A DNA stretch of 64,000 bases from Parelaphostrongylus tenuis (taxonomy: Eukaryota; Nematoda; Chromadorea; Rhabditida; Metastrongylidae): NCBI GenBank assembly GCA_019055375.1, contig JAHQIW010004752.1:698683-762682 (forward strand). The letters run 5' to 3'. Both the position numbers and the translations under genes were made by a program. The notes beneath the pieces were generated by a model. It saw only the letters and a program-made list of their open reading frames with translations, was not told the DNA's origin and ran no database searches. Positions 19,314 through 25,604 of this stretch are shown here, one piece after another (within the stretch, counting starts at the first letter, position 1; every line of letters begins with the position of its first letter).

Positions 19314-20649
19314 CGAGAACCTTGAGCTTTATCATCAGTGGTTTCAATCTCCCGATGTCAATGACATGGACGAGCGATCAAGGTGTAGCTTCGCGAATCC
19401 CAGGCATACTACGCAGTGGAGCCGATGTTCAAGCATTCGTTCAACGTCTTATGATGCAAGCTGTGAGTGTTAGGAAGATATCGAATTTACCATACTGCAT
19501 CTTGCTAATTTTGCCAAAAATTAGGGAAGATTAATACCGAAAGGTCAATGGAAGATTTTCCAGGTTTTTGATGTGCTTGAACAACAAGGTCGTAGCGCTG
19601 GCCTCGTTGACGCTGTGATAGCGGAAATTTTGAACCAACTTACCGTGAGGGTTGGCTATCGACCACTCCACTGCCAAGTGGTGGCTGTTCTTCCAGTTGC
19701 AAATATAGATTGTTAGCAATCAATTCAAATAGATAATAATGTGGAATGATATACAAAAATTTCAATCTCGAACGTGAATCGACCCAGCATGTCACCTTTG
19801 CGAGAGCACGTGCTAAACATATTTTTAAAGAATGTTCAAAGCCTTACCAGAGGTTGATATGCCATGTCCATATATCCATCGACTGAAAAGTGGTGATGGC
19901 ACAATGGCATAGTACAATATGTCGTCACCACATTCGCCTCCCCCTTTGCTACAGTGCAGGGTTTATTGAGGGGCGTCGGCCACTGACGAGGAGGGCGAGA
20001 CGTCCGAAACACGCGTGTATAGCTCTGGCATACCAACCTCGGGTAAGGCTCTAAACATTCCTTAAAAATCATATTGAATCATAATAATAATGGTTTATCC
20101 ATAATATAACGCCAATATCTGTTAAGTAAGGTGAACACATTCAAAAAACATGATATGTTTTTTTTCTGGAGAATTTCTAGCACTATATATTCTTGCAAAT
20201 TCACATACTGACCTCTAATTCTGCCCCTTTTCAATGTTTTATCAGAAACTGATTATTTCTTTAGAAGGATTGTCTTGCAGATGACATGGATAAGATGATG
20301 GGAGAGAGTTGCGTGGTTTCCGACAATATAGTAAACGGCTTGTGCAAACCAAGCATGGGCAATGTCAAAATGTGTATGCTAATGGGCAACGATGCCTTTA
20401 AGGATGTTATACCCGTACCAGAGCAACATATGCGAATTAATGGGACTATCTCGGTGGGAGATTTCCTATTTACCTTCGAAAACATTGATACTTCACTGTG
20501 AAAATAAAGTTCAGACCACCAATATCATTATGGCAAATTGGTCAACGCAAATGTGGCAAAGCGTTTTGAACAGAGTTACCCGAGCCTTAACGTCAGGCCC
20601 GTTTGGGGCGAACTTCGCTGGAGTTTCTGCCACTATCAGAGGAAGTTAA
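19314..20649 (+). CDS. Unrecognised nematode-type gene, copy 1 (four visible exons)
   Basis: Exon A, 19,314-19,462, reads LSFIISGFNLPMSMTWTSDQ, GVASRIPGILRSGADVQAFV and QRLMMQA, ending at GCT|GTGAGT. Exon B starts at 19,564 after 'ttttccag' with VFDVLEQQGRSAGLVDAVIA and ends in TGT TAG at 19,711-19,716. Exon C, 20,281-20,453, reads MMGESCVVSDNIVNGLCKPS then VIPVPEQHMRINGTIS. Exon D, 20,515-20,649, reads TTNIIMANWSTQMWQSVLNR and ends with TAA. Phases at A/B and C/D are compatible. B joins C only if spliced within the terminal Cys codon (T|GTTAGC); otherwise B ends a separate product. All four exons recur with many synonymous changes at 53,858-54,923. The 5' exon is missing: exon A opens in mid-codon and an RTE end lies just upstream. 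Function unknown; copy 1 may be truncated. Confidence 0.65.
19821..20069 (+). mobile_element. 249-bp inverted-end element between exons B and C
   Basis: The left arm, 19,821-19,863, and the reverse complement of the right arm, 20,027-20,069, agree at 38 of 43 positions. Both read 'atttttaa.gaatgtt.a.agccttacc.gaggttg.tatgcc'. A 3-base 'cat' flanks each end (19,818-19,820 and 20,070-20,072) as a possible target-site duplication. The paralogous intron at 54,265-54,565 lacks it and is about 260 bases shorter, consistent with insertion. The interior holds a candidate hammerhead ribozyme beside the right arm. It codes for no evident protein. Confidence 0.75.
19978..20024 (+). ncRNA. Candidate type I hammerhead ribozyme
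   Basis: The core CUGACGA (19,983-19,989) is followed by stem II G19990-G-A with U-C-C20005 and a 10-base loop, then GAAA (20,006-20,009). Stem III pairs A20009-C-A-C with G-U-G-U20018 around a 2-base loop (or three pairs plus a CGCG tetraloop). Position 17 is A20019, giving a GUA cleavage triplet between 20,019 and 20,020. Stem I pairs U20020-A19982, G20022-C19980, C20023-G19979 and U20024-G19978 with one A/C mismatch, and is continued by the element's inverted arms. All strictly conserved hammerhead residues are present. It lies sense to the surrounding exons, so cleavage would cut that pre-mRNA. Confidence 0.7.
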
Positions 20650-22317: not shown

Positions 22318-22581
22318 GCGACGACGACCGATTGACACTGCACTGCTGTCAAGTGAAATTAACTAGAACAGCAGCTTCATACACTCGATTTTTCTTGGCT
22401 AGAATTTCAAACTATATTATATAGTTCTTTTCAGTGTTTTCTCAAAACTGTATTCTTAGGACCCGAAAAGAACGGTATAACATTTTTTAAAATGCCCGCC
22501 AAGAGCAATCGAGTGTACAAAACTGATGTTCTAGTAATTTTCAATTGATAGCAGTGCAGTGTAAATCGGTCATCGTCGTGA
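22318..22581. repeat. Imperfect inverted repeat, arms about 88 bp
   Basis: The left arm, 22,318-22,405, beginning 'cgacgacgaccgatt' and containing 'cactgcactgct.tcaa.tgaaa', is the reverse complement of 22,493-22,581 with scattered differences. The loop is about 88 bp. It sits between the hammerhead-like fold and the first Penelope frame, so it may be part of the PLE 5' terminal repeat or a separate foldback element. Confidence 0.75.
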
Positions 22582-23360
22582 ACTTCATCAGGCGAAAACG
22601 AGCTATGCGGGCGACCAGAAGACAATCAGCGAGTATTGAGCATCGAACTAAGACTCCTACGAGAAGCACTTCGATTCAAACAACATTTAATGTATTCTCA
22701 TTTAATGAAGTGTGAGTCGAAAGAATTTTATTGTGTTCAATATTTGAAGGATCGCCTTCGGAGGGGAATTAAGGGTGGGTCAATTTTGATTTGCGAATCT
22801 ATTAGGTCAAATGCTAAAGTAAACTTACGCAGAAAATTTGGAAAACTTCTAAACAATTCGCATAGGCAAACTCCAGCAAAACACTATAACACCGTTAACG
22901 AAAGCCCTAAGAGTCTAACTAACATCAGTAATGTGTCGGAACATGACTCTCCCCGATAATGCGCGCTCGTTCCTAGAAATGGGCCCAAGTTTCTTACCAG
23001 CGCAATCCATTTCTAAGGAAACCCTGTGTACTATCGCGTGCAATTTGCAAGACCTGCAAGATTGGCTCCGCTATAAAGCTAGACTAGATCCACCCAATAG
23101 GCGCGAAAAGCAGGAAAATATAAGGGCATTGACAACATGCCTTTCCCTCGAGCGTTCTTTGGACAACAAGGCCCTAATAATGAAGTGTATATCAATTTCG
23201 CATATTTTCGGACGAAACTCTTAGAATCTTCAATCACTTTCGCGCAAAAAAGTTTAGCTCCAACCTAACATCAACGCAGAAAAACGGTATACGTCAGATA
23301 CGGGAGCTAATAAAGTCCAAAACCATTCGACTATCAGTTAATGATAAGGGAGGAGAGCTC

Positions 23361-24166
23361 GTGGTAAATCCCCATAAGTCGGATTTTAAGATAACGAAAA
23401 AACACCTAGAGGACACTACACTCTATCGTCCATCATCCAATAAGGAATTTCAAAAGCAATATCGAAAGTTGAATAGTGAGTGGGTAAAAATAGCAAGTTC
23501 GGCTGGTTTAAAATCTTCCGCTATTCCTCAACTAAAACTTAATCCATCATCATGCCCCGTCTTTTACTTACTAATTAAGACTCATAAGTTTGAGTGTACT
23601 GATGATCTTGCGTCTACTGATCCATCAAAATTTAAAGTTAGAGCCATCATCAGCTGTGTAAACGGGCCAACGGATAGAATAACGTGGTTTTTGAACCTAA
23701 TACTAGTCCAACTATTAAAACACAATCCAGCCCATCTTACCAATACCCAAATGTTCTTGGATCGTCTACGTAACGCGTCTCCCAACAACGCGTACGCAAT
23801 GGACTCGTTCGACGTACCGCTTTTTATACAAACGTGTCGAATGAGTCCTCAATGCAAGCCATATGCTAGCTTCTAACGGAGCACGAACGAACTACGAACA
23901 TGTATGGCTTCTCCATCCGGCAGGTTATGGCTTTCTTAAAAGAGTGCCTTAGCTGCTCATTCTTTAGATGGTCTGGAAATTATTTTGCGCAGATCAGAGG
24001 GCTGGCAATGGGACAACGAATAGCTCCGACCCTTGCTATCGCTTTTATGTCTAAAGTAGATGCACCAATATTCGATCTCCAGCCGTTTCTCTACTGTAGG
24101 TATATAGATGATTGTTTTATCGTCTGCTCAACGCAAGAGGAGATGGACAAATGTTTTGAGTTCTAA
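23361..24166 (+). pseudogene. Penelope reverse transcriptase, frameshifted
   Basis: The first frame contains the PLE core blocks YLLIKTHK, RAIISCVNGPTDRITWFLN and SFDV, the motif A aspartate. The reading then shifts by one base, since SFDV should continue T-LYTNVSNES but reads PLFIQTCR. The second frame, from 23,900, has motif B (GLAMGQRIAPTLAIAF) and motif C (CRYIDDCF) with both catalytic aspartates, then the STQEEMDKCFEF block and a stop. All catalytic residues survive, so the loss of function comes from frame breaks rather than active-site decay. Confidence 0.85.
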
Positions 24167-24561
24167 AATAGCCAGTCAGAGTACATAACGTTCACCCGTG
24201 AGAAACCTAAGGCAAATTGGCTTCCATTTTCAAATGTTCAAGTTAACCTCTCTAAAAACTCCTACAACACAAAGTGGTATCGTAAACCAAGCAACAAAAA
24301 CATCCTGGTTCACTACCTATCCGCTCATCCCTCGCACACAAAATGCGCACTTATAAAAAACATGTTTCGAACAGCTGCTAATAAATGCACAGAAAAAGAA
24401 CACAAGGTGGAGTCCTTGATATTGGCGCGAAAAATAGCCATCTCCAATAGTTACAAACGATAGGAGCTTCTCGGGTTAAATTTAGAGGAAATTCGGCGCC
24501 CCTATGCGGAAGGTCGAGCGAGGATACAGTTCCATTCATCCTGCCTTTCATTTCCAACGAT

Positions 24562-25074
24562 GTGAGTGCAGCCATTGAACGCTGCTTAAAAAGAGCAGGT
24601 TTAGATATTCTGGTAGCAGTAGTCAAGATACCACCAAGAACACTAAAACGCCAATTAGTTCACAACCGGCTGTATGATCTCTGCGAAACCAACGACTGCA
24701 ATGTTTGCCCAAACGGCAGAGACGGCGACTGCATGAGGTCGGCTACAACTTACCTGATCTCTTGCGAGGCATGCGGGGATGAATATATTGGCGAAACGGG
24801 TAGACCACTCTGCATCCGCGTAAAAGAGCACCTAGCTGGGAAACGTAACTATGACCCAAAAACCTCACTAGGCACGCATAGGGAACAGAAGCATAATGGA
24901 GCAGATTTTGACGTTAAAGTCACGGTCCTTGCACAGAAATCGAAAACGTCTACGCGTAAAACTTTGGAAGCCTTCTGGATTCATAGCAAAGGCCCAAAAA
25001 CGAACCGCAAAGAGGAATGCCTCGTAATAACGCGTGACCTAGCACCATATCTCAGGCTAATATTCCCGACCTGA
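24562..25074 (+). CDS. GIY-YIG endonuclease domain of PLE-A
   Basis: The 170-codon frame starts in the linker (SAAIERCLKRAGL), then PPRTLKRQLVHNRLYDL, a Cys cluster (CETNDCNVC...GDC), and the nuclease core YLISCEACGDEYIGETGRPL followed by CIRVKEHL. The GIY-like and YIG residues, the following Arg, and the Glu-His pair are all present. HREQKHNGADF and the C-terminal helix region complete the domain. This module nicks DNA to prime Penelope reverse transcription. It is open to its natural stop, although separated from the RT by frame breaks. Confidence 0.85.
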   Translation: MSAAIERCLKRAGLDILVAVVKIPPRTLKRQLVHNRLYDLCETNDCNVCPNGRDGDCMRSATTYLISCEACGDEYIGETGRPLCIRVKEHLAGKRNYDPKTSLGTHREQKHNGADFDVKVTVLAQKSKTSTRKTLEAFWIHSKGPKTNRKEECLVITRDLAPYLRLIFPT

Positions 25075-25271
25075 GCCAGCCACAGTCTTAGATTATCACA
25101 GACTCCAAGTGGCAGGTCTTCAATGATTGATTGAACGACCTAAAACATCTAAGCGGTAAGTGTTTTTGAAATGAAGTTTTTCTACGCGACCCAAAAGTTT
25201 ATCTCTTACATTTTCTGCTAGGGTTATGGAGGCTTTTGATTTAATAATTCGCGAATCAATTTGACCTTTCC

Positions 25272-25310
25272 AGGCTCTGAAGATGGCGAACCTTGCCGAA
25301 ACGTTAGCCA
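25272..25310 (+). ncRNA. Minimal hammerhead motif at the PLE-A 3' end
   Basis: GGCU (5' strand of stem I) is followed by core CUGAAGA (25,277-25,283), stem II GGC...GCC, then GAAAC and GUU (cleavage triplet), and AGCC pairs back to GGCU. Stem III is only two pairs with no loop. Minimalist hammerheads of this kind are known in the terminal repeats of animal Penelope elements, where they may work as dimers. One unpaired U precedes stem II. Confidence 0.6.
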
Positions 25311-25604
25311 CCACGACTGTTGTAATATTCGTGCTGCATTACTAACTGTATTGTTATGTGCTTCGCTGATATTCGATAAATAATATCATTAACACCTCGG
25401 ATCGGCTAAACAGAAGAAGATACTGATTTATTCAAACTATGCCGAGGTTGATAGATAGTCGGACCTGGGATTTATAGATTTAACTCCAGGAGTGCCTCAT
25501 GAAAGTTGTTTCCTGCGCTCGATGGCTTACAAAATCACTTTTCGGAGGAGCTTATTTTGCCTCCTTGAGAGATCACACAAAATTAGTACGATTGTCTATA
25601 ATGT

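Follow-up and report, generated by a model that had tools for sequence, protein, structure and literature searches.

Does the hammerhead-like motif found in the sense orientation within an intron of a Parelaphostrongylus tenuis gene act upon the transcript of its host, or is it part of a small element that has come to lie there? The window, that is, the whole stretch of 64,000 nucleotides that was analysed, had been read in a preliminary description as carrying a candidate self-cleaving ribozyme that, if active, would either cleave the pre-mRNA of a conserved gene or release the RNA of the element that carries it. The analysis described here favours an origin in the element: the motif is probably a decayed hammerhead in a truncated member of a non-autonomous retroelement family of P. 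tenuis, here called family A, mobilised by the reverse transcriptase (RT) of Penelope-like elements (PLEs).

The letters on which the ribozyme had been proposed are all present. On the plus strand, the hammerhead-derived motif of type I topology (19977..20025, in the window copy of family A) comprises stem I (19977-19982/20020-20025), the core CTGACGA (19983-19989), stem II (19990-19994/20001-20005), GAA at 20006-20008 (GAAA at 20006-20009) and, forming stem III, the palindrome ACACGCGTGT at 20009-20018 followed by A at 20019; the GUA of 20017-20019 places the predicted cut between 20019 and 20020. The stems are likewise as they had been described, with three contiguous pairs in stem II, three to four in stem III and an imperfect stem I. 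Taken alone, the motif stands at about the level of chance, since a loose descriptor that fits it was found in 5 of 60 random windows drawn from a second-order Markov model, and 23 of 100 shuffles contained the spaced core pattern. What raises it above chance is the finding that it is one copy of a repeat family whose consensus is a complete hammerhead.

Searched at the DNA level, the 481-Mb assembly gave at least 85 matches to the repeat (the best 40 of 2580 first-look candidates were scored), and the monomer of family A has a period of 266 bp and a GC content of 48.1%. The consensus, drawn from the window copy and 33 other copies, combines stem I GGGCCA/UGGCUC, stem II GGAGG/CCUCC and a stem III palindrome ACACGCGUGU, with stems I, II and III of 6, 5 and 3 bp in a three-stem layout open at stem I. 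The core CUGANGA, the GAAA and a UH cleavage site are all present in this consensus of 34 aligned sequences, and stem-loop II reads GGAGG-GCGAGA-CCUCC. The hammerhead fold of the consensus lies 2.6 kcal/mol above the predicted minimum, and the minimum fold itself has stems I and II. By a hand calculation, a complete hammerhead would arise by chance at about 2e-7 per 266-bp repeat, and sampling with the same settings gave 0.

Moreover, the core has been spared by substitution. Among the 33 other copies, non-CpG core letters are changed in 6 of 231 cells; outside the motif the figure is 430 of 4585 (Fisher p 1.3e-4). The core letters are kept in 20 of these copies, two of them on duplicate contigs, where the substitution rate outside the motif would predict 34% (p 0.0014), so that the loss of the core in most genomic copies, which the preliminary description had named as telling against a ribozyme, is not what is seen. 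All stem pairs are formed in 5 of the 33, two of these again on duplicate contigs. The hammerhead is not alone in being retained: a hairpin lies upstream of it, a perfect 18-bp stem in the consensus, and when up to 3 mismatches are allowed, the 43-nt hammerhead core matches 274 places in the genome, the hairpin (43 nt) 101 and a tail stretch of 46 nt 29; none of the three reversed controls matched anywhere. Within the same limit among the 33 aligned copies, the hammerhead is found in 20, the hairpin in 18, a middle stretch in 5 and the tail in 6; the hammerhead and the hairpin are thus retained about equally, and both better than the middle stretch or the tail. A chance resemblance to a hammerhead, for which the chance-level motif of the single window and the Rfam scores below cut-off would speak, carries next to no probability against the consensus stems of 6, 5 and 3 bp and the low rate of core substitution.

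Covariation between the two sides of the stems is suggestive. In the first 27 rows compared, pair changes were neutral (2 vs 1.4). In 34 verified rows, changes on both sides of a pair occupy 11 cells as against 3.9 when shuffled (reached in 0 of 2000), while the number of pairs with a both-side change, 4 vs 3.0, is not unusual (663 of 2000); the 11-cell count therefore leans on one subfamily with shared ancestry, and as the counts are of cells and not of events, that the stems are kept by covariation can only be suggested from them. The rows were assembled from the 34 aligned sequences by excluding eight (seven with a changed length, and L020 as a duplicate of L019) and by adding nine of 20 stretches chosen by their tails, the other eleven being excluded by eye as truncated or shifted in the motif or as duplicates; the resulting 36 rows, minus the artificial consensus and L075, gave the 34, which were checked against the loci. 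The sister subfamily in question, whose copies were picked by the tail, keeps stem I by paired changes (GGGUCA/UGACCC). Two copies carry the palindrome ACACCGGUGU, in which the centre is CG in place of GC and the stem III palindrome is kept; since full pairing of a loopless palindrome requires a second molecule or copy, this retention may hint at action as a dimer. For the upstream hairpin the signal is weak, with G-C at pair 15-28 in 17 rows vs 12.4 shuffled (78 of 5000) among 61 of the 101 hairpin matches.

The covariance models of Rfam, by which the preliminary description had proposed to check the motif, do not recognise it. No family matched the whole window at its gathering score, and in a 2-kb stretch no hammerhead was reported with an E-value as high as 10 allowed. 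When 91 bases of the window copy were searched, RF00163 (Hammerhead_1) was second by E-value with 11.3 bits (E 4.8) against a cut-off of 34, which formally goes against the hammerhead claim. However, a copy with exactly the consensus core (again 91 bases) scores only 12.8 bits (E 1.6) against the same cut-off of 34, which indicates that the Hammerhead_1 model is insensitive to family A. For both inputs Hammerhead_1 had the top bit score among the families listed, at a significant level in neither. The same model does find other hammerheads in this genome, with at least 31 matches, at least 20 of them above cut-off (74 of 119811 candidates scored), and none in 14 control genomes; of ten such places examined, seven were recovered by the descriptor, and palindromes like ACAGGCGCCUGU form their stem III. 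The hammerheads above the Rfam cut-off include L055 and L065-L074, several of which have a palindromic stem III, and inverted pairs occur at two places among them, L069/L070 and L055. A further hammerhead, CTGATGA..GCGAGA..GAAACGTGTGT, lies on the minus strand near 1140-1190 of L064 (G000:C3859:28000-34000), about 520 bp beyond a PLE endonuclease frame. Short hammerhead repeats are known from a worm in the Sm-alpha elements of Schistosoma, to which family A is alike in this respect; family A differs from Sm-alpha in its CUGACGA, its stem-loop II GGAGG-GCGAGA-CCUCC and its position below the Rfam cut-off, and the stem-loop II of another hammerhead family in the P. tenuis genome is presumably Sm-alpha-like.

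Given that the family consensus is a hammerhead, could the copy in the window still work where it lies? The host gene (19361-20649, plus strand), a member of a large P. tenuis family, has approximate exons at 19361-19462, 19564-19711, 20281-20453 and 20515-20649, with boundaries set by eye, and the inferred intron at 19712..20280 holds the element. The protein spliced in this manner matches its paralog P0001 at 83% over 100% of the query, and such a match to the best homologue over the whole query supports an intron at about 19712-20280. The intronic position and sense orientation of the motif, as they had been described, fit this by-eye gene model and the paralog match. That the gene is conserved holds within P. 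tenuis: all of the 82 homologues listed are named as that species, and a Pfam search with the host protein matched no family.

The sense orientation in this inferred intron and the intact core letters are what would make the motif a working hammerhead by which the host pre-mRNA would be cut and its splicing tuned, like the amniote RECK and CTCL hammerheads, which are intronic as well. The accessible part of the source on those ribozymes (PMC6155905) describes them as conserved across species, whereas the window motif belongs to a decayed copy of a dispersed repeat. Compared with the consensus, the window copy has lost two pairs of stem I, the second (C.A) and the sixth (C.C), and the fourth pair of stem II (G.G), which leaves 4 of 6 pairs formed in stem I and 4 of 5 in stem II, and its hammerhead fold is predicted at -7.9 kcal/mol as against a minimum of -19.7, a gap of 11.8 kcal/mol. 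The paralogous gene at L096 (G000:C763, around 6.2 kb) aligns with the window at 85% as far as 19820 and again, at 82%, from 20066, and between these flanks it has 264 bp without recognisable similarity to the element; the element is thus absent from that paralog, the one examined, and the hammerhead is not conserved at the same place there. On the strength of the folding of the window copy and the comparison with the paralog, an intronic regulator was rejected, and it is held to be highly improbable. Because of the three broken pairs, the predicted misfold and the absence from the examined paralog, the window motif is most likely a decayed transposon copy and not an intronic switch, and most likely an inert one. 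Of what was first proposed, the descent from a hammerhead carried by a small element is supported and a working intronic ribozyme is not; for intact copies elsewhere, release of the RNA of the small element is plausible as judged from sequence.

The whole element copy in the window is a truncated family A member of 264 bp at 19816..20079 on the plus strand, delimited by BLAST to the monomer consensus and by the flanks of the paralog. It consists of an inverted arm at 19816..19872 on the minus strand, which runs from m266 of the monomer down to about m210 with its outer end in the loop of a 3' stem-loop, and of a direct arm at 19874..20079 on the plus strand, which runs from m66 through m266 to m4 and has its 3' end in the same loop. 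The hairpin upstream of the hammerhead is decayed here (19890..19931, plus strand), and of the 3' terminal stem-loop only the 5' half is present (20035..20079, plus strand; the AACCTCG side and the loop), the copy stopping within the loop. On the idea of a tRNA-derived SINE, ARAGORN found no tRNA gene; a stretch near 19895 was taken, by eye, to be A-box-like.

In the window alone, such an arrangement has the look of a MITE, an apparent element of 249 bp with terminal inverted repeats of 44 bp at 89%, and this look is what would commend a derivative of a cut-and-paste DNA transposon in which the hammerhead is incidental. The other copies argue otherwise. An inverted copy is present on the 5' side in 15 of 29 family A loci, with both 3' ends outward and arms of variable length, and no inverted arm was found in the remaining 14; all but one of the 15 inverted arms end in one of two 3'-end classes (the loop class being taken to m11). 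The direct arm exceeds one monomer in 19 of the 29 loci and passes unit to unit at 266 bp, the longest array being 589 bp. Clear target-site duplications were seen in 2 of 27 copies, of 13 bp (L003) and 11 bp (L023), with two weaker cases of 7 bp, and are thus of no fixed length. As neither fixed terminal inverted repeats nor a target duplication of fixed length was found among the copies, the MITE was rejected; its probability is very small, and the inverted arm joined to the direct arm in the window copy is re-read as a pair of retrocopies lying head-to-head. The 5' ends do not gather convincingly at the predicted cut: 7 of 79 fall at m207-m216 where 3.0 would be expected, but the densest 10-nt window elsewhere holds 9.

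If the copies are retrocopies, the next question is which RT made them. In the same window, a PLE remnant with RT and GIY-YIG pieces lies at 23111..25475 on the plus strand, recognised by Pfam (RVT_1 above cut-off, GIY-YIG below) and delimited by alignment to genomic relatives, and it is a candidate for the type of autonomous partner of family A. Just upstream of it, an inverted repeat of 114 nt is formed by 22319-22432 and 22465-22578 (82% complementary, 32-nt spacer). PLEs look very abundant in P. tenuis, with 22077 first-look candidates for the PLE endonuclease, of which 150 were scored to give at least 150 matches. Minimal hammerheads have reportedly been found in PLEs, and the remnant carries one of this Penelope type at 25273..25312 on the plus strand (GGCT-CTGAAGA-(T)GGC...GCC-GAAACGTT, with the cut before AGCC), for which Rfam gave no match at E up to 10. 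The resident form, AGGCT-CTGANGA-..GGC..GCC-GAAACGTH with the cut before AGC, occurs in 30 of 34 PLE loci, some of which overlap. PLEs with minimal hammerheads and family A are alike in the palindromic stem III and in the 3' stem-loop behind the hammerhead, while stems I and III of family A are longer than those of the resident PLE hammerhead.

The likeness extends to the way in which copies end. The 3' ends of family A, counted once per locus with one duplicate contig excluded, fall in two classes, in the loop of the 3' stem-loop (m259 to m8) in 16 of 29 loci and about 46 nt beyond, at the end of a tail (m40 to m53), in 12, with 1 elsewhere; the loci had been selected with a query that reached only to about m10, so that ends before about m246 are hardly visible in this count. 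In 16 resident PLE copies, measured against one reference and with that reference and three near-identical copies excluded, 7 run to the end of the tail and 6 stop within the loop, while 2 more break off in the 3' stem and 1 at another point. Family A loci therefore display the two classes of internal RT-start ends around an optional tail that mark Penelope-type insertion. Further, partial tandem and head-to-head copies are common to the two in this genome: among the 150 PLE matches listed, 12 of 13 pairs of neighbours less than 10 kb apart are head-to-head with their 3' ends outward, two of the pairs apparently being copies of each other. These twin insertions of family A and of PLEs are read as reverse transcription primed at both sides of one break. 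Work on an Anolis PLE reports that its protein cuts and extends both strands and that its RT starts at internal sites, the optional tail of 30-40 bp being the stretch between two RT start sites, and this tail signature has been called common to and unique to PLEs (PMC11167929). The hammerhead of the Anolis element is reported to need the PLE protein for its cleavage and to be dispensable for insertion in vitro (PMC11167929).

Whether the tails are also related by descent can be judged less firmly. Against three PLE 3' termini, the score of the family A tail was reached by 0, 1 and 0 of 2000 shuffles, and over the 34 PLE loci, termini scored 50, 50, 47 and 44 as against at most 42 in 3120 reversed windows, while one window away from any PLE terminus also scored 50. 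When the final 36-38 nt were aligned end to end, 1, 9, 13 and 0 of 5000 shuffles did as well, and a profile of 8 PLE termini searched against the tail gave no match. In view of the profile miss, the homology of the two tails is moderate, and the common pattern of insertion is the stronger argument. It is on these points that a retrozyme-like hammerhead repeat moved by another RT, such as an RTE or L1-like one, has to be weighed, the PLE likeness being then a coincidence or a matter of common structure. The profile miss fits this alternative, as does the fact that PLEs are the one RT type of the genome compared with family A; moreover, that PLEs move animal retrozymes is put forward as a hypothesis in the accessible part of the published source (PMC7229834). 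The two-class 3' ends and head-to-head copies, which match those of PLEs in the same genome, stand against it, and another RT is considered unlikely, though it is the likeliest of the alternatives.

A closer tie to PLEs is also conceivable, in which family A would not be an independent short element but the pseudo-LTR of a PLE lineage. A hammerhead with a 3' stem-loop is indeed the layout at PLE 3' ends here, and 4 of the 30 family A loci contain PLE termini (E below 0.001). However, a piece of PLE protein occurs in only 1 of the 30 loci, each of about 3.2 kb, and a frame with RT and GIY-YIG, as an autonomous PLE would have, was not found in them; the direct arms, too, continue from unit to unit at the 266-bp period. 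The pseudo-LTR was rejected on the count of the protein piece and is judged improbable, and family A is taken onward as a short element distinct from PLEs.

As such, it has its closest counterparts in the non-LTR retrozymes of animals (Cervera and de la Pena 2020, PMC7229834; the comparisons rest on the accessible part of that paper). In both, a type I hammerhead sits in a short tandem monomer, the 266 bp of family A lying within 150-450 bp; both co-occur with PLEs that carry minimal hammerheads; and a highly self-paired circle is common to both, in family A as a prediction from the consensus, whose monomer folded as a circle gives -97.3 kcal/mol against a shuffled mean of -68.6, a value reached by 0 of 200 shuffles. 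The GC content of retrozymes is given there as under 50% in the results and under 45% in the introduction, as compared with the 48.1% of family A, and retrozyme target duplications, when present, as longer than 4 bp, next to which family A has the two clear cases of 13 and 11 bp and the two weaker ones of 7 bp among 27 loci. Family A differs in its PLE-like two classes of 3' ends and its head-to-head copies, and in residing in a nematode, the string 'nematod' being absent from the main text of PMC7229834. No description of a retrozyme-like element in nematodes was found among literature titles and the openings of abstracts, a search in which most subscription papers were out of reach.

How might such an element propagate? 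Intact members of family A would be transcribed as partial or full tandem repeats, and the type I hammerhead, probably acting as a dimer by way of its palindromic stem III, would cut the RNA once per monomer. The RNA may then serve as a template for the RT of resident PLEs, which would begin synthesis at either of two places, the AT-rich loop of the 3' stem-loop or the tail end, and priming from both sides of the cut target would leave two copies head-to-head with their 3' ends outward. That PLEs are the likely movers of animal retrozymes has been proposed from their shared hammerheads, tandem copies and co-occurrence, as set out in the accessible parts of two reports (PMC7229834, PMC7761336). 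Family A may offer genomic evidence for this proposal, and its palindromic stem III may point to a dimeric ribozyme in tandem or twin RNAs; this wider proposition is put forward tentatively, with doubt slightly outweighing belief.

Overall, family A resembles the animal retrozymes, and the window holds one of its decayed copies; the family bears Penelope-type marks of insertion and brings a retrozyme-like hammerhead element to a nematode. The case also illustrates how a hammerhead family can escape a covariance model and how a single decayed intronic copy can mimic a regulatory ribozyme. The identity of the enzyme that mobilises animal retrozymes has so far been a hypothesis built on common hammerheads, tandem copies and co-occurrence (PMC7229834 and PMC7761336, in their accessible parts). 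Given that the ends of family A coincide with the start sites of PLEs in the same genome, the question becomes one that could be put to the test with a purified PLE protein and one short RNA.
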